From assembly GCA_017409845.1 (NCBI GenBank), contig JAFQRY010000033.1:1-64000 (forward strand): 64,000 bases of DNA, written 5' to 3'. Of the stretch, positions 23,360 to 61,104 are shown piece after piece; position 1 is the first letter of the stretch, and each line of letters starts with the position of its first letter. Under the pieces are notes generated by a model. The model ran no database searches, was not told the origin of the DNA, and worked only from the letters and a program-made list of their open reading frames with translations. The stretch comes from Clostridia bacterium (GTDB lineage Bacteria > Bacillota > Clostridia > Oscillospirales > Acutalibacteraceae). The translations under genes and the position numbers were made by a program.

Positions 23360-23379
23360 TAATATTTTTTGATGATTAA

Positions 23380-23575
23380 CACCCTGCCTTGTGCGATTTA
23401 CTTGCAGTCTATATGTAACCCAACACACATTAATAGGGAGCCCGGCTCCGGTGGCGGATTGCAGACCTCCCGGTCAGATTCGGTCTGATTGGACGAAGGG
23501 AGCGTGAAAGCATCGGGCGGCACCCACCTGCTATAAGAGCAGGTTACAATCGGCTGCATACGGCTTGGCGGGGTT
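23380..23575 (+). ncRNA. ssrS: 6S RNA
   Basis: About 196 nt with the 6S layout. The closing stem is ACCCTGCC (23381-23388) with GGCGGGGT (23567-23574), continued by TGTGC/GCATA and GATT/AATC. There is a large central bubble and a terminal stem CTCCC...GGGAG with a TCAGA-TTCGG-TCTGA loop. In the 3' bubble strand is the small hairpin CCTGCT-ATAAG-AGCAGG set between CACC and GTTACA, as in E. coli 6S. It would mimic an open promoter and sequester sigma-A RNA polymerase. A T-rich tail follows at 23575-23585. Confidence 0.78.
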
Positions 23576-23603
23576 ATTTTGTCTTTTACGGAGGATTAAA
23601 GCA

Positions 23604-54431: not shown

Positions 54432-56303
54432 TCAGGCATCTTCTTTGGTTTCTGCATAATACTGTGCCTGAGCATTCCAGAGCTCGGAGTATTTTCCGTT
54501 TGCATCTTCGAGAAGCTCCTCGTGAGTACCCTCCTGAATAACTTCGCCGTTATCGAAAACAACGATTCTGCTGCAGAATCGGCAGGATGAAAGTCTGTGA
54601 GAAATATAAACGGCTGTTTTTCCTCCTGCGATATCATTGAATCTTGAATAAATTTCGCTCTCGGCTATGGGGTCGAGTGCGGCAGTGGGTTCGTCGAGAA
54701 TTACAAACGGTGCATCCTTATAGAGTGCTCTTGCAATGGCGATTTTCTGTTCTTCGCCGCCCGAAAGGTCAATGCCGTCTTTTTCATAGAGCTTATAGAT
54801 TGATTGCTTCAGCTTCTTCGGAAATTCTTCAACTCTGTCTTTTACACCTGCCATTTCAAGGCATTGCCACACTCTTTCTTCATCATAATCATCAGAACAG
54901 GCAACGTTTTCGCCCACGGGAAATGCGAGAAGCTTGAAATCCTGAAAGACAATTGCAAAAAGCTTTAAGTATTCGGCATAGTCAAACTCACGGATGTCAA
55001 TTCCGTTGAGCGTAATTTTCCCCTCTGTAGGGTCATAAAGACGGCAAAGGAGCTTTATCATCGTTGACTTACCGCTGCCATTCATACCTACAACCGCAAG
55101 CCTTTCACCCGACTCAATCTTCATACTGAAATTCTTTAATATCATCGGCTCGGTTTCGGGATAGGCAAAGGAAACGTCGTGAAATTCAAAAACAGACTTT
55201 GTAGGGTCGATGCCGTCAACGGTTCTTGTGCCGTTTTCCATATCGGAAACGAGATTAAGATATTCAATCTCCTGCTTTAACTGAGCATTGTTTGCATGCA
55301 GATAACCTGCGTTGCCCGCAATATCCGTGCATGCGGTTATCAGCTTTGTGATTGCACCGTAATATTCAACAACCTTGCCTGCACCGAATGCACCTGCAAG
55401 TGCTTTGAGTCCGACGAAAATATAAACGAGACCGCCGATCAGATTTGTTGAAATTGTGCTTATCTGACCGATGGTCGCCCAGACTCTGAAAGTATCTTTT
55501 CTCATCTTTGCGGTGGGATTATAAATCTTTTCGGTGATTTCTTCGTTGATAAGCCCTTTTTCGTTGAAAATTCTGACATCCTTGCCGCTTTCGTTTTCAT
55601 TGAGATATTTCTGATTATAGTATTCAAGAATCGGGTTGAATTTTACAACTCTGTTGAAAATATTGAACTGTTTTTTCTCACTCAGACTGTGATATTTAAC
55701 CGAAAGTGCAATCATAACAGCGGAGAAAACAACAAGCGTCATACCGAGCAGAGGCGAATCAACAAACGCCATAAATCCCGTGAGCGGTGCAGGTGATTTG
55801 CTGAAAACCATGCCTGAAATCATAACGATTGCAACAACAATTGAAAAAACGCAGGATATCATTTCTGCTACACATTCAGCAACCCATGTAAGACCGTTGC
55901 CGTTATTTGCATTTTCTTCGATTTTGCCGCGGAGCTCCTGAACAGACGAACTTTCCGCCTTTGCGTAGTCAAGCTCAAGTGCCTTTCTGGAGAGAAGTGC
56001 AGAATGCTTTTCCCAACAGCTGTTGAGCATTATCAGGGCTTTGCGGTTGATTGTTCGGATGATAACATCAATAACGAGTGTTGTGATTGTTGCGATGAGA
56101 ACGTATTTCAATATCTGCTCAAAGCCTTGCTTTTCGGTTAAAGCGGTGATGACAAGACCCGTGCAGTAAATTGTGATATAAGGCGAAACGGCACGGAGAA
56201 TTTTAACAATGAGATTGAGTGAAAAATAGTTTTTGCCGAGATAAATTTTAACAAGCTTCAGACCTTGCCTGATTATTTCAAAATCTTCTTTGAAGCTCTT
56301 CAT
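54432..56303 (-). CDS. ABC exporter half-transporter B
   Basis: A 623-residue fused membrane/ATPase subunit. A six-helix transmembrane domain (about 1-335) is followed by a nucleotide-binding domain with Walker A GMNGSGKST, LSGGEEQ signature, Walker B FVILDEPTAALDP and switch HRL. Its ATG overlaps the stop of the partner gene by four bases (ATGA), so the two are coupled and probably form a heterodimer. The substrate is not readable; context suggests a peptide linked to the two-component system at 58769-60782. Confidence 0.92.
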   Translation of the reverse strand: MKSFKEDFEIIRQGLKLVKIYLGKNYFSLNLIVKILRAVSPYITIYCTGLVITALTEKQGFEQILKYVLIATITTLVIDVIIRTINRKALIMLNSCWEKHSALLSRKALELDYAKAESSSVQELRGKIEENANNGNGLTWVAECVAEMISCVFSIVVAIVMISGMVFSKSPAPLTGFMAFVDSPLLGMTLVVFSAVMIALSVKYHSLSEKKQFNIFNRVVKFNPILEYYNQKYLNENESGKDVRIFNEKGLINEEITEKIYNPTAKMRKDTFRVWATIGQISTISTNLIGGLVYIFVGLKALAGAFGAGKVVEYYGAITKLITACTDIAGNAGYLHANNAQLKQEIEYLNLVSDMENGTRTVDGIDPTKSVFEFHDVSFAYPETEPMILKNFSMKIESGERLAVVGMNGSGKSTMIKLLCRLYDPTEGKITLNGIDIREFDYAEYLKLFAIVFQDFKLLAFPVGENVACSDDYDEERVWQCLEMAGVKDRVEEFPKKLKQSIYKLYEKDGIDLSGGEEQKIAIARALYKDAPFVILDEPTAALDPIAESEIYSRFNDIAGGKTAVYISHRLSSCRFCSRIVVFDNGEVIQEGTHEELLEDANGKYSELWNAQAQYYAETKEDA

Positions 56304-58108
56304 ACAACCGCCTCCTCTCTGTAATATCTGCTCTGTGTTTCAAACATTCCGGCATATTTGCCGCCGAGTTCAAGAAGCTCCTCGTGCGTTCCCATTTCGG
56401 CAATTTTTGCATCGTCAAGAAGTATTATTCTGTCGCAGAAACGGGTTGAGGAAAGTCTGTGGGATATATAAATTGCGGTTTTATCCTTTGTAAGCTCGCT
56501 GTATCTGAGATACATATCGTTCTCTGCAATGGGATCAAGTGCGGCGGTAGGTTCGTCGAGAATGATTATCGGTGCATCCTTGTATAATGCCCTTGCAAGC
56601 AGAAGCCTCTGAAGCTCGCCGCCCGAAAAAGCTACCGCACCCTCGTTAACTTCACGCACAAGCAGAGTATTTTCTTTCTGCGGCAGACTTTCAACCTTAT
56701 CAAGTATTCCTGCAAGCCTCATGCAGTCACTCAGCCTGCCACGGTCAATTTTGTTTTCCTCGCAGAGTGCAATATTCTTTGCAACCGTTGCAGGCAGCAA
56801 TGCACAATCCTGAAAGAGGGTTGAGAATAACCGGTAGTATTCGTCACGGTTGAAAAGCCGGCTGTCAATTCCGTTTATGAGAATCTGACCTTCCTGCGGA
56901 ACAAACAGACCGCAGATGAGCTTAACAAGCGTTGATTTGCCTGCACCGTTAACGCCGACAATCGCAATTTTTTCACCCTTATTAATTTTAAGGGAAACCT
57001 TGTCAACCGAAGGTTTTTCGGCTTCATCGTAAGAGAAAGTGAGATTTTTAAGCTCGATTTCGCAGGGCAAATCCTTGCCCGACGGCAGCCTTTCGCCCTT
57101 GCCGTTATTCATTTTATCCTCAATATCAATAAAGCTTCTGAAATCGCTGACATTGTGTGCACCCGAGATAATTTCGGAAATCGAGTCAACAAGCCTTGCA
57201 AGCCATTGACCGAATCCCGTTATCGCACCGAAATAAAGAGAAAAATCGCCGAGTGTCATCTCAGAATTGAGTTTGAGATAAATGAGATAAATATACGCAC
57301 CGAGGCTTACGCCGAATTTGAAGAAATCTTCAAGCATGCAGTTGATATAGTGACCGTTATTCCGCAGGATGTTCCACCAATTTGCATCGTCAAGATGCTT
57401 GTCGATTTTTCTCATAAGGAAGTCGGACATATTGTAAATGCGGACATCCTTTGCATTTGAGAAATCCTTTGAACGGTAGGTGACGTAGTGAAGCCGAAGG
57501 AAGATTTCTGCAACCTTATCCTTCATTTTATCCTTCCATTTCTGAAAAATCATCCAGCCTGCCATGCTGATACCGTAGCAGAGGATGAGAATGGGGATAA
57601 ACCACGGATTGCACTCAACGATAATTGCTGTGAATGCCGAAAAGCCGAAAACAGATGACACAAGCGATGCATTAAGTTCAATAAATCTTGCAACACTGCC
57701 CTCCCAGCCGTGAATTGCATTCCACGCTTTTTCACGCAGAACACGGGTTTCGTTGCAGGTGTAGTTGTTATAATCCATGCTCATAACCTTGTTGCAGATG
57801 AGTCTGTGGAGCATAATGTCACGGGTAAGCATTCTTCCCTGATAGCTTTTGTTATACAAAACATTATTGAGATATCCGAAAGCAACAAGTGCAACGGAAA
57901 GAATTCCGACCTTGAAAAGAAGCTCCGAAGCAGGTGTTTTGTTTTCAACGCAGTCGAGAACGATTTTCGGCAGATATGCCGCCACAACCGAGCTTACCGC
58001 ACCCAGCGGAGTCAGACCGACTTGCAGGATAACATATGATTTATCAAAATTCCAATGCTCCTTCAGCATAAATTTCAGATTGCTGAAATAATTATATTTT
58101 TTCTTCAC
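56300..58108 (-). CDS. ABC exporter half-transporter A
   Basis: A 602-residue partner of the downstream half-transporter. The transmembrane domain lies at about 20-320, Walker A GVNGAGKST at 385-393, signature FSGGELQR at 494-501, and Walker B IIILDEPTAALDP at about 514-526. Both subunits have a canonical Glu after Walker B. The start is GTG 58108, five or so bases after AGGAGGG, overlapping the stop of the 92-residue membrane protein by four bases (GTGA). Longer upstream frames run into that gene and are rejected. Confidence 0.92.
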   Translation of the reverse strand: MKKKYNYFSNLKFMLKEHWNFDKSYVILQVGLTPLGAVSSVVAAYLPKIVLDCVENKTPASELLFKVGILSVALVAFGYLNNVLYNKSYQGRMLTRDIMLHRLICNKVMSMDYNNYTCNETRVLREKAWNAIHGWEGSVARFIELNASLVSSVFGFSAFTAIIVECNPWFIPILILCYGISMAGWMIFQKWKDKMKDKVAEIFLRLHYVTYRSKDFSNAKDVRIYNMSDFLMRKIDKHLDDANWWNILRNNGHYINCMLEDFFKFGVSLGAYIYLIYLKLNSEMTLGDFSLYFGAITGFGQWLARLVDSISEIISGAHNVSDFRSFIDIEDKMNNGKGERLPSGKDLPCEIELKNLTFSYDEAEKPSVDKVSLKINKGEKIAIVGVNGAGKSTLVKLICGLFVPQEGQILINGIDSRLFNRDEYYRLFSTLFQDCALLPATVAKNIALCEENKIDRGRLSDCMRLAGILDKVESLPQKENTLLVREVNEGAVAFSGGELQRLLLARALYKDAPIIILDEPTAALDPIAENDMYLRYSELTKDKTAIYISHRLSSTRFCDRIILLDDAKIAEMGTHEELLELGGKYAGMFETQSRYYREEAVV

Positions 58109-58383
58109 ACGCTTTCCCTCCTGATAAGTGAAATGATTATTGAAACAATAACAGCACAAATGACAAGATAAATAAATGTGCCCGTTGATTCCCGGAGTGC
58201 CGCAACAGCACAGCTCAGCATAATCAAGCCTATGGCAACGAAATATCCGCCGAGAACTTTATATCTTTCGGAGTTTTTACACATTATTTTAACGAAGCCC
58301 TTGAGCTTATTGCGGCAAATTGAAATTCCGATTGCGGAATGAAGTGCCGCAGAAATCAAAGCAACTATTGAATAGTATTTCAT
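58105..58383 (-). CDS. Small three-helix membrane protein
   Basis: A 92-residue protein with hydrophobic segments at about 3-22, 43-62 and 66-87 and a basic loop (KNSERYK) after the first. I do not recognise the family with confidence. It is translationally coupled to the ABC exporter genes, so it may be an accessory or immunity-like subunit. AAAGGA stands 11 bases before the ATG. Confidence 0.75.
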   Translation of the reverse strand: MKYYSIVALISAALHSAIGISICRNKLKGFVKIMCKNSERYKVLGGYFVAIGLIMLSCAVAALRESTGTFIYLVICAVIVSIIISLIRRESV

Positions 58384-58417
58384 TTGATATCACATCCTTT
58401 GTTTTTGTTATAAAATC

Positions 58418-58674
58418 CCTCCGTCTTTTGACTTCGTCAAAATCCACCTCCCTTAAAAGGGAGGCAACAGAAGCCGGAAGCCTGAAACGGCTCCCTCGTG
58501 AGGGTGATTCCCCACAGTGTGGGGAAATGTCACGAAGTGACAAAGGGGACGGCCGCCGTCAGCGGCTGTCGAGCAAAAGCGAGACTGAGGGAGTTATTTC
58601 AGCTTTCGCGGAGCGATACATAATGCGTCGCAGACCCTTCACTCGCCGTCAGGCGAATATCACTTTTGCGAGGC
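58418..58674. repeat. Modular palindromic repeat, copy 2 (composite)
   Basis: A chain of palindromes: TTTTGAC-TTC-GTCAAAA, CCTCCC/GGGAGG, CTCCCTCGTGAGGG, CCCCAC/GTGGGG, TGTCAC-GAA-GTGACA, GCCGCCGTCAGCGGC, and GCGAGACTGAGGGAGTTA. Several blocks recur at 450-521, and the CTCCGT...CACCTCCC block recurs inverted at 63915-63955. There is no coding content. It separates the kinase gene from the exporter operon. Confidence 0.75.
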
Positions 58675-58705
58675 AAAAAATAAAGGCGGAAGCCTTGCCT
58701 CCGCC
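58675..58705 (-). terminator. Terminator of the kinase operon
   Basis: GGCGGA/TCCGCC stem followed on the - strand by TTTATTTTTT. It stands between the second LytTR box pair and the exporter operon. Confidence 0.85.
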
Positions 58706-58717
58706 GCTTCTGTATTA

Positions 58718-58746
58718 ATGATAAATTAAAAATCACACGATTGAAA
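58718..58746 (-). promoter_or_regulatory. Possible LytTR-dependent promoter facing the exporter operon
   Basis: TATCAT (58718-58723) with TTTCAA (58741-58746) at 17 bp, nine bases downstream of the LytTR box pair. The terminator at 58675-58705 follows immediately, so output would be short unless it is read through. Confidence 0.35.
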
Positions 58747-58755
58747 TACGCTCTG

Positions 58756-58785
58756 CAATAGTGTGGATTTAATGTTCAAAAGTGT
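58756..58785 (-). promoter_or_regulatory. LytTR-type direct-repeat pair B
   Basis: On the - strand ACACTTTTG and ACACTATTG are spaced exactly 21 bp start to start. Extended alignment to pair A (61051-61080) matches about 28 of 34 bases. It overlaps the last codons and stop of the kinase gene. Confidence 0.6.
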
Positions 58786-60070
58786 TGCAGATATTGATGC
58801 TCGTTGTGAATATATTTCCCTCGCAGGAAACAAAAACATCACCGCCGTATTTCTGTGCAATAGTCTTAATGCTTTTGAGTCCGTAGCCGTGGTTGAGCTT
58901 GTCGGCTTTTGCCGTACCGATACGCTTTGTGTCAACAGATGCTTCAACGGGATTCTCAACGGAAACAACTATTCTGCCTCCCATTGTAATAATGCTTGCA
59001 AAAATTGTTTTCTCCATACCATTACCGAGACCCTCTGCGGCTTCAATCGCATTATCAAGTGCGTTGCCGATAAGTACACCGAGTTCGAGCAGATCAACGT
59101 TGATTTTATCCGAAATCTTAACCGAATAATCGAGTGTTATTCCCTTGCTTCCGGCAATAGCAAGCTTGGATTGAAGAACGGCATCAACTGCGGGGTTGCC
59201 CGAATTTATAACGCCGTTGTTTGCTTCGTCAAGAAAATCCGCTTCGCCCTTTATTGCATCAATGGCAGACTGAATCTGACCGTCTGCGAGAAGTCCCGAA
59301 ACGGAGAGCAGTTTGTTTTTAATATCATGTCTGAAAGTGCGGATTTCGCTCTGATAGCGATAAAGCTCCTCATAGTGAGCAAGCTGATTTTTGATTTGTT
59401 CGTTGGCAAAACCGAGCTTTGCCTTTGATTCAACATAGTCCTTTTGTCTGTAAATAAGAAAGAGGGTAACGAGATTTGAAGCAATCATCAGAACAGCAAC
59501 AGCAGCATATAAAAATGTCGGAATACTGCGAACCTCGTATGTGCATTTATATATTACAATCGTAACAAAAACGGTTGCAATCGGCTGGATAAAAAGAAGC
59601 ACCGACTGTCCTTTTGAAACGCCTAAATCCATCTTCCCGATTTTCTTCGATATGAAATAAGTTATGATAAACGCAATAAACTTGCAGATAAAACCCATTC
59701 CTGCAAATATATAATCGTTCTCCATAAAGCTGAGTGTTTCTTCGCCCAATATAAATCCGGTTAAAAGAACCGCAATCATTTCAGAAGCACCTGCTATAAT
59801 CGTATAAACCACACCGCCGATTATCGCAAAAAACGGTTTTACTTTGTATGATAAGCCGAATGCAAGAGCGATAACCGTGCTCATAATAAGCATAGTCAAG
59901 CCTGTTCCGGTCAGAAAATAAGACGATAGAGCGTTCAGAACAATCGCTGCTGACATAACAAGAATATGGACTTTTCTTTCAAGCCTCTTTTTTGCAACGG
60001 CAGAGAATAAAACTTCTACTGCAAAAATTTCAAAGCAAGCAAAAAGGAAATGTGAAATTATTCTTACCAT
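58769..60070 (-). CDS. AgrC-type sensor histidine kinase (GHKL)
   Basis: A 433-residue kinase with six to seven predicted N-terminal membrane helices (about 1-210), then a coiled coil and phosphoacceptor region FRHDIKNKLLSVSGLL, and a GHKL ATPase domain with N-box GNALDNAIEA and G-box HGYGLKSIKTIAQKYGG. This is the layout of AgrC/ComD-like peptide receptors. It starts one base after the regulator gene stop, so the two are co-translated. Likely ligand: an extracellular peptide, possibly the product of 60896-60970. Confidence 0.92.
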   Translation of the reverse strand: MVRIISHFLFACFEIFAVEVLFSAVAKKRLERKVHILVMSAAIVLNALSSYFLTGTGLTMLIMSTVIALAFGLSYKVKPFFAIIGGVVYTIIAGASEMIAVLLTGFILGEETLSFMENDYIFAGMGFICKFIAFIITYFISKKIGKMDLGVSKGQSVLLFIQPIATVFVTIVIYKCTYEVRSIPTFLYAAVAVLMIASNLVTLFLIYRQKDYVESKAKLGFANEQIKNQLAHYEELYRYQSEIRTFRHDIKNKLLSVSGLLADGQIQSAIDAIKGEADFLDEANNGVINSGNPAVDAVLQSKLAIAGSKGITLDYSVKISDKINVDLLELGVLIGNALDNAIEAAEGLGNGMEKTIFASIITMGGRIVVSVENPVEASVDTKRIGTAKADKLNHGYGLKSIKTIAQKYGGDVFVSCEGNIFTTSINICNTFEH

Positions 60071-60071
60071 T

Positions 60072-60782
60072 TCACCAGCCCCACTTTCTGATAAAAATAT
60101 CGTATGCCTTCAATGCTTCCTGCTTCTTTCTAACACTTACGGCAACCTTTGAACCGTCGGTCAGTTCGACCTCGTTTGCATTGAAGCTTTTTATGTAGTT
60201 CATATTAACAATGAACCCCTGATGCACCCTCACAAATCCGTGCGGCTTCAGAATTTCATATATCTCTGAAATTTTACCGACAGCCTCATAAACTCCGCTT
60301 GCGGTATGCACGGTCAGATGTCTGCGGTAACCCTCAACATAGCTTATTTTGTTGATTGAAATTTTGTTCCGCACACTTTCCCATTTCAGAATAATGCTTG
60401 CATTTGCCGCAGTATATTTTTTCATCGCTCTTGTAAAAACTTCGCTGAATTCTTTTTCTTTAATCGGTTTAACAAGAAAATGAAGTGCCTCTATTCTGAA
60501 CGCATCGAAAATGTAGCTTGAATGGCTCGAAACAAAAATTATGATTGTTTCGGGAGCAAATTCTCTTATGGTTTCAGCGGCTTCAACGCCGTTGATTCCG
60601 CCCATCTCGATGTCGATGAACACTATATCAAAGCATCCGCCATTTTTATAAAATTCAATCAAATCTTCACCGCAGGAGAAATCGGAAATGTCAAAACCGT
60701 CGTCTTCGGTACGGAACGGTTCGAGCAGATTTCTGATTTCTCTGACGGAAAAGCAGTCATCATCGCAAACACAGATTTTCAT
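60072..60782 (-). CDS. LytTR-family response regulator (AgrA-like)
   Basis: A 236-residue regulator: receiver domain (1-120) with acidic pocket CDDD, phosphoacceptor Asp in FIDIEM and Lys in FLVKPI; then a LytTR DNA-binding domain (about 135-236) with GYRRHLTVHT, GFVRVHQGFIVNMNYI and the C-terminal VSVRKKQEALKAY. LytTR proteins bind pairs of about 9-bp direct repeats at 21-bp spacing, which are present at 61051-61080 and 58756-58785. GAGG precedes the ATG by five bases. Confidence 0.95.
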   Translation of the reverse strand: MKICVCDDDCFSVREIRNLLEPFRTEDDGFDISDFSCGEDLIEFYKNGGCFDIVFIDIEMGGINGVEAAETIREFAPETIIIFVSSHSSYIFDAFRIEALHFLVKPIKEKEFSEVFTRAMKKYTAANASIILKWESVRNKISINKISYVEGYRRHLTVHTASGVYEAVGKISEIYEILKPHGFVRVHQGFIVNMNYIKSFNANEVELTDGSKVAVSVRKKQEALKAYDIFIRKWGW

Positions 60783-60837: not shown

Positions 60838-60871
60838 AAAAAAAGACACCTCCAAAAAAACGGAAGTGTCT
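60838..60871 (-). terminator. Terminator of the small peptide gene
   Basis: AGACACTTCC/GGAGGTGTCT stem (one wobble) followed by seven T on the - strand, 25 bp after the peptide stop. Confidence 0.92.
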
Positions 60872-60895
60872 GAAAAATGCAGATAATTTATTCTG

Positions 60896-60970
60896 TCAGC
60901 TTATTAAGGCAGACAAAACGACACCCCGATTCAAAAAGCTCTGCATCACGTCATAAATTCTTCTTGTCAT
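60896..60970 (-). CDS. 24-residue peptide gene, candidate signal or PSM-like peptide
   Basis: A short open frame beginning MTRRIYDV and ending VVLSALIS. AGGTGG stands five bases before the ATG, a near-consensus promoter 34 bp upstream, a LytTR box pair just above that, and a strong intrinsic terminator 25 bp downstream. The peptide has a basic N terminus, one Asp, no Cys, and an amphipathic-to-hydrophobic helix-like run (Ile5, Val8, Met9, Phe12, Leu13, Val17, Leu19, Leu22). It lacks a Gly-Gly leader and is not AgrD-like in having no Cys. It may be a linear pheromone or a phenol-soluble-modulin-like peptide; translation is inferred, not shown. Confidence 0.65.
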   Translation of the reverse strand: MTRRIYDVMQSFLNRGVVLSALIS

Positions 60971-61003
60971 TTTATCCACCTGCCTTTCAATAAATTTTTC
61001 TAT

Positions 61004-61032
61004 ATTTTAACAATACGGATTTGATTTGTCAA
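61004..61032 (-). promoter_or_regulatory. Promoter of the small peptide gene
   Basis: Perfect TTGACA (61027-61032), 17-bp spacer, TAAAAT (61004-61009). Confidence 0.85.
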
Positions 61033-61050
61033 CCGTTTTTGCCGATTATG

Positions 61051-61080
61051 CAAAAGTGTTGATTTTAAATGCAAAAGTGT
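61051..61080 (-). promoter_or_regulatory. LytTR-type direct-repeat pair A
   Basis: On the - strand two identical ACACTTTTGCAT units are spaced exactly 21 bp start to start and end 18 bp above the -35 of the peptide promoter. ACAxTTxxG fits the loose LytTR/AgrA consensus, as does the 9 + 12 bp layout. Confidence 0.7.
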
Positions 61081-61104
61081 AGAAACAGGATTGCTTCTGC
61101 CGGC

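Follow-up and report, generated by a model that had tools for sequence, protein, structure and literature searches.

A probable leader-peptide attenuator in front of a LytTR/GHKL operon in a member of the Clostridia

Introduction

A gene of only 24 codons, situated upstream of the genes for a response regulator and a sensor kinase in a Clostridia bacterium (Acutalibacteraceae), raises the question of what such a small gene could be for. The stretch of DNA which was analysed, here called the window, comprises positions 1 to 64,000 of GenBank contig JAFQRY010000033.1. In a previous inspection of the letters without database searches, designated below as the sequence-only reading, the small gene had been taken for a self-contained unit next to an AgrA/AgrC-like pair, and its product was likened to phenol-soluble modulins or linear pheromones. 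Short translated frames are also found in quite another role, since attenuation by leader peptides is itself well known. The locus was therefore compared with its relatives with respect to reading frame, RNA pairing, neighboring genes and regulatory sites.

Organization of the locus

On the minus strand, from 61080 to 60836, there follow in order a direct repeat, a promoter, AGGTGG, the 24-codon frame and a terminator. The direct repeat (61049–61080) consists of two perfect copies of ACACTTTTGCA and lies 16 nt 5' of the -35 hexamer; its spacing of 21 bp, about two helical turns, is what we take to be the mark of LytTR sites. With two direct repeats at this spacing upstream of the -35 hexamer, it is a candidate site of a LytTR-controlled promoter. 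The promoter itself (61004–61032; TTGACA at 61032–61027 and TAAAAT at 61009–61004, 17 nt apart) is of the sigma-70 type, agrees with the consensus at 11 of 12 positions and ranks first among 16 promoter-like sites between 59.5 and 64 kb, where shuffled sequences contained 10.2. The ribosome binding site AGGTGG (60981–60976) is followed by the frame MTRRIYDVMQSFLNRGVVLSALIS, 24 codons and a stop (60896–60970, with ATG at 60970 and the stop ending at 60896), and by an intrinsic terminator predicted from the sequence (60844–60871; a stem of 11 pairs, then a T run), which stands between the frame and the next gene. Promoter, AGGTGG, codons and terminator are thus all present where the sequence-only reading had put them; the perfect direct repeat, and a complementarity between frame and terminator which is described below, had not been part of it.

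The two genes named in that reading follow on the same strand. A LytTR response regulator (60072–60782; matches to Response_reg and LytTR) begins about 60 nt past the terminator, and a GHKL sensor kinase (58769–60070; HATPase_c_5), AgrC-like in its general layout only, comes next. A second LytTR-type direct repeat, detected with the repeat pattern (58754–58785), precedes an ABC operon which is headed by a frame of 92 aa (58105–58383; from the list of open reading frames and from relatives) and comprises two exporter halves recognized by domain matches (56300–58159, start codon uncertain, and 54432–56303), all on the minus strand. The stretch between the second site and the 92-aa frame (58384–58753) is longer in the window than in genomes G048, G050 and G051, possibly through a small inserted repeat; at the corresponding place, G016 carries a different insert.

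Distribution of the leader unit

The nearest orthologues of the regulator led to a second copy (L003), in which repeats, promoter, frame length and terminator were alike and the peptide was different. The repeat pattern alone, at up to 3 mismatches, occurred at 29 places in 17 of 45 genomes of the genus; the reversed pattern, used as a control, had no match in these 45 genomes. At 23 of the 29 places a leader layout followed, with frames of 18–41 codons, and the other six lay where the kinase gene ends, ahead of the ABC operon. A first covariance model was built from 22 of the 23 units, omitting L049, which is cut by the end of its contig. At E ≤ 0.01 it found matches in 29 of the 45 genus genomes and in 57 of 300 sampled genomes of the family; at E ≤ 1e-5, 32 of the 300 had matches, including the genome of the window and four of its genus. 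These matches precede unrelated genes, chiefly GNAT acetyltransferases. A second model, built from 88 matches, two of them weak and on the opposite strand, identified at E ≤ 1e-5 the element in 19 of 295 genomes of the order, 9 of 391 of the class and 1 of 398 of the phylum; these samples overlap, each contains the genome of the window, and the sole match in the phylum is that genome. It possesses three strong leader elements (C33, C5 and C19), and a fourth match at E 0.005 is probably due to chance. Scanning of named genomes with a pattern yielded at least 114 stretches with matches. The 80 loci listed are mostly titled as Clostridia or Clostridia families, many of them from animal guts; some of these records stand for genomes which the model searches had also covered.

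No family of Rfam 15 reached its gathering threshold for the leader unit, and the nine matches obtained with a stretch of 351 bases were weak, each far under the threshold of its own family. The sole Rfam match in the window above the gathering threshold was a 6S RNA at 23378–23578 (plus strand, 51 bits). Plasmids searched at blastn sensitivity contained no match to the leader region, and viral contigs no exact match of the leader pattern. Related leaders with the end TDKIILSALTF were observed in Paenibacillus ginsengarvi (L204) and in a Lachnoclostridium assembly (L220), and the genes of about 634 aa downstream are homologous, which suggests that leader and gene were transferred together.

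Since the unit of repeat, promoter, frame and terminator recurs in relatives, and the bodies of the leaders stay open (see below), the 24-codon gene is more than a chance arrangement and, by the measure of these comparisons, is a genuine short gene.

Evidence for translation of the frame

Named genomes were scanned with a pattern which was blind to the frame, allowing any spacing of 28–58 nt between the ATG and the conserved arm at the end of the leader. Among the matches listed, all 115, in 114 stretches, had a short frame that was open and in phase, and the distances from ATG to arm were solely 34, 37, 40, 43, 46, 52 and 58; three of them (L206, L209, L211; distances 40, 43 and 58) are chance matches within longer genes, which are also in phase because real genes read these codons too. 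At the 80 listed loci the proportion was 81 of 81. Of 111 distinct leader bodies all 111 were open, against a mean of 42% when each was shuffled; frames longer than 35 aa were excluded, and the bodies are related and hence not independent.

The elements from the model search were less uniform. A clear arm was present in 75 of 79, with 60 of the 75 in a common phase, at distances of 33–84 nt, and 15 outside it. Six of the latter stand before LytTR-only genes and three, which have their own phase, before one ABC family; the remaining ones are L079, L111, L114, L118, L135 (where the position of the arm may be one off) and L136, and include the copies of G024 and G309 in front of regulator orthologues. 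A CGGAGA-like motif, which changes frame in seven elements before LytTR-only genes, was at first taken as an argument against coding; this was given up, as the elements out of phase form a minority. Regulators consisting of a LytTR domain only, with a repeat and a leader-like element of varying frame phase, were encountered at L070, L073, L075, L076, L078, L080, L082 and L083; these may represent one-component forms related to the system.

Overall, the leader frame looks as if it had been kept for translation, as the short leader frame of a ribosome-mediated transcription attenuator would be; this judgment is drawn from sequences alone. The search for a short frame in relatives which the sequence-only reading had recommended came out in favor of a real short gene, its frame being kept in relatives and tied to the LytTR/kinase locus.

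RNA pairings

The RNA has two pairings which exclude each other. In stem P1, the 3' end of the frame can pair with the ribosome binding site and the start codon of the leader itself. In the window the 5' arm of P1 extends over 60968–60980 and the 3' arm, within the end of the frame, over 60908–60920 (both on the minus strand, derived from structure and covariation). Covariation was evident in an unfitted alignment of 22 units, where 90.5% of the cells of P1 and terminator were paired, compared with 84.4% after shuffling, and 32 cells had changed on both sides, compared with 10.7; none of 500 shuffles reached either value. A weaker measure, pairs changed on both sides (9 of 23), was reached by 15 of 500 shuffles, and further pair types were not above the shuffles in this alignment (146 of 500 reached them). 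In 88 rows fitted to the model, 96.3% of the cells were paired, compared with 88.0%, and 15 of 23 pairs had changed on both sides, with 184 cells as against 39, to which 0 of 500 shuffles came up.

Within the frame there is also a third segment, whose complement is found in the 5' arm and loop of the terminator; in the window this candidate antiterminator segment is GGGGTGTC (60920–60927, minus strand), which could pair with 60870–60863, including two G-U pairs. For assessment across the family, 157 parsed elements were reduced to 126 by removal of duplicates and of elements in which no terminator was called. Against shuffled leaders the mean z score of the 126 was -2.5; 73% were at or under 5% of the shuffles and 27% were not, and an element's own terminator scored better than the mean of up to 40 swapped ones in 101 of the 126, with 25 failing to do so. 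An alternative antiterminator pairing is thus found across the family; the window copy taken singly is weak and not significant (z -1.8, 7% of its shuffles), and the copies before regulator orthologues (L060, L065, L091, L106 and L147) are at -2.4 to -3.9. The complementary pairs vary by subfamily (CGGAGA/TCTCCG in L061, ATAAAATCA/TGATTTTAT in L203, TATACGAAGCC/GGCTTCGTATA in L214), which is what selection on pairing predicts.

When the RNA of the leader unit was folded with the leader free, P1 and the terminator formed. The antiterminator was seen only in nascent fragments in which the early leader was masked and the 3' arm of the terminator missing. Masking of the early leader did not keep the terminator from winning once the RNA was complete; a switch would therefore need to be kinetic and to operate during transcription.

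A frame in phase, P1 and the complementarity of frame and terminator together make up the anatomy of a ribosome-mediated transcription attenuator. Very probably, then, as far as can be judged from such features, the 24-codon gene encodes the leader peptide of an attenuator which gates the LytTR/GHKL operon. Its description as self-contained could not be upheld, with similar frames, stems and terminators preceding GNAT and other genes and with a frame complementary to its terminator.

An improbable alternative would be a free small regulatory RNA, driven by LytTR and consisting of two hairpins, in which the frame would be incidental or of secondary importance; it would account for the separate promoter, the two strong hairpins and the several copies per genome, but hardly for frames open and in phase far above chance, nor for the antiterminator complementarity. 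A non-coding RNA of this kind was set aside on the phase test. In addition, 58 of 71 elements had the called start of the downstream gene at 0–60 nt past the terminator stem (the median being 26 nt; starts were chosen automatically, and 8 of 79 elements had no called frame downstream), which leaves little room for a separate promoter.

Genes behind the attenuator

The downstream proteins of at least 100 aa, 133 in number after exclusion of three chance matches and with copies of one locus from G genomes and named genomes both counted, formed 92 clusters at 85% identity and 32 homology groups, with GNAT acetyltransferases foremost. The Pfam scan covered 51 of 54 representatives (60% identity; L176, L205 and L214, cut or short, were excluded) and assigned 16 to Acetyltransf_1, 9 to LytTR and 2 to ABC_tran; other families were scattered, e.g., HAD, histidine phosphatase, methyltransferase and GrpB. 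The single accessory genes behind the leaders may serve resistance or detoxification.

With respect to the regulator, orthologues of at least 44% identity in the genome of the window and 40 relatives drawn without regard to the leader had the element upstream in 4 of 6 cases (G000, G016, G021, G024); it was absent before the regulator of G012 and G020 (54% identity). In 50 genomes, mostly chosen for holding leaders, the figure was 12 of 14. The element is directly upstream of the regulator in G000, G016, G050, G191, G134, G244, G317 and G309, and a GNAT gene is interposed in G021, G048, G051 and G024.

An attenuator responding to one specific amino acid or charged tRNA, and not to general translation stress, would have an identical anatomy. 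It is nevertheless very improbable here: ahead of the pairing region no residue occurs in more than 81% of 108 leaders, the most frequent one (T) largely reflects the ATGAC start context, and the 25 of 53 Pfam families listed for the 51 representatives include no typical family of amino acid biosynthesis or uptake. Leaders without a shared control-codon residue argue against a single amino acid.

Comparison with known systems

With the agr system and the phenol-soluble modulins under AgrA the locus shares a LytTR regulator, a GHKL kinase and a direct-repeat promoter site; it differs in that AgrB was not found, the cut-offs for AgrA and AgrC were missed about tenfold, and the small gene reads as a leader. 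The regulator scored 40.3 bits (cut-off of the AgrA equivalog 400) and the kinase 38.8 bits (AgrC equivalog, 500), both far below; of the proposed AgrA/AgrC-like pair, the LytTR and GHKL domains were confirmed. The genome (95.8% complete) gave 0 AgrB matches in a search of uncertain sensitivity, as its 14 control genomes likewise gave none over the cut-off. The window peptide is free of Cys as had been stated, a property which several orthologues do not share (L060, L065, L091 and L106 end in Cys). Its supposed amphipathic character is borderline, the hydrophobic moment being reached by 9.5% of its shuffles, and in three orthologues it is at chance (54–84% of shuffles).

A secreted signalling peptide, either a linear pheromone to which the kinase responds or a modulin-like effector under the LytTR regulator, is the least probable explanation of all. 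In its favor one could cite a short, translated-looking, Cys-free frame behind a LytTR-type site and the proximity of an AgrC-like kinase and an ABC exporter pair. Against it speak like leaders before GNAT and other genes, a conserved peptide end which is the RNA-pairing arm while the remainder varies, the complementarity of frame and terminator in the family, for which a peptide gene standing by itself has no use, the terminal Cys of several orthologues, and G191 and G134, where regulator and leader are kept and no kinase match was present in the fetched stretch. Together with the AgrA/AgrC cut-offs, the AgrB search and the amphipathicity test this led us to reject the pheromone or modulin function.

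The attenuator reading brings other relatives into view. For resistance genes, the available excerpts of three papers describe a short translated leader and a terminator before the gene, with readthrough proposed upon stalling of the ribosome (PMC9226507, PMC6310831, PMC10314930). The attenuators of vmlR in Bacillus subtilis, hflXr in Listeria and msrD in streptococci share with the present one the translated leader, the terminator and resistance-type genes downstream. We would count bmrCD of Bacillus subtilis, too, among the closest ribosome-mediated attenuators. In contrast to all four, the leader sequence here is different, its end masks its own ribosome binding site, one kind of leader serves many unrelated genes, and the target is a two-component operon whose promoter has a LytTR-type site; we know of no resistance attenuator with any of the last three properties or with such a site. 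The uORFC motifs (PMC8632094), in the excerpted part of that paper, are upstream frames within structured RNA, preceding cysS, hflX and aroF, and those with a terminator are proposed attenuators; none of the motifs in that part matches the leader family of the window. Among the open-access papers which the searches listed, no title or beginning of an abstract described this kind of leader or a LytTR locus controlled by one. Leader-peptide attenuation as a principle is already known.

LytTR sites and candidate regulon

In the genome of the window the repeat pattern, loosened after the sites had been seen, matched at four places, of which three precede the strong leader elements and one the ABC operon; reversed, the loosened pattern had no match in this genome. 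Two of the four places are leader/GNAT units elsewhere in the genome. The site before the ABC operon is kept in G016, G021, G050, G191 and G134 (1–2 mismatches of 22) and weaker in G024 and G309 (4 of 22). In G191 and G134 the order is regulator, site, ABC pair. Behind the kinase of G012 and G020 there is a weak site, and what was fetched of them had no ABC match; near the regulator of G244 and G317 there was no kinase, ABC pair or LytTR site (up to 4 mismatches). At L264 and L265, from two other genera, the ABC pair and both LytTR sites accompany the regulator, but the fetched stretch gave no match to a kinase; perhaps they represent a kinase-free form of the system.

Repeats with up to 3 mismatches stand before 30 of 79 elements, as against a fraction of 6e-5 of 15,800 shuffled upstream regions. 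Leaders with other targets had a site in 7 of 10 cases where a close regulator was present, and in 6 of 49 elsewhere (Fisher p 4e-4, uncorrected for kinship; the regulator-operon elements L031, L041, L067 and L091 were removed by hand, and several genomes are incomplete and related). The frequency of LytTR sites within the genus is not free of selection, because the seeds of the model were found through that site. Outside the genus, leaders are mostly without the repeat; thus the attenuator is probably the core, and control by LytTR an addition in some lineages.

Proposed mechanism and significance

According to the proposed mechanism, ribosomes traversing the leader would allow the terminator to form, and transcription would end before the regulator; if no ribosome loads, P1 would form, and then the terminator, with the same result. 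A ribosome stalled near the start of the leader would cover the 5' arm of P1 and leave the later segment free for the terminator arm; pairing of the two would let transcription continue into the regulator. The switch probably confines synthesis of sensor and regulator to times at which protein synthesis falters. As inducer, an agent which slows translation is most likely, e.g., a ribosome-targeting antibiotic; it is not named by the sequence, because no residue is common to all leaders. The regulator, in turn, would bind the direct repeats at its own promoter, at the two leader/acetyltransferase units and at the operon of the ABC exporter which follows the kinase; output would then require regulator activity as well as translation stress.

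In its widest form the proposal is tentative, and we would put it at somewhat under an even chance: a leader-peptide attenuator family not described before would govern many genes of gut Clostridia and would be set before a two-component system and its targets, forming an AND gate of LytTR control and ribosome stalling. Should the gate be real, sensing at the membrane and at the ribosome would act together on a single regulon, made up of an ABC exporter and acetyltransferases, and a ribosome-gated two-component system would join two kinds of sensing which are usually studied separately. Short translated frames beside LytTR/kinase pairs, it should be cautioned, need not be pheromones. What appeared to be an orphan peptide would become the sensing component in a recurring RNA switch, and dozens of genes in gut Clostridia, as yet uncharacterised, would be marked as probably induced by translation stress.
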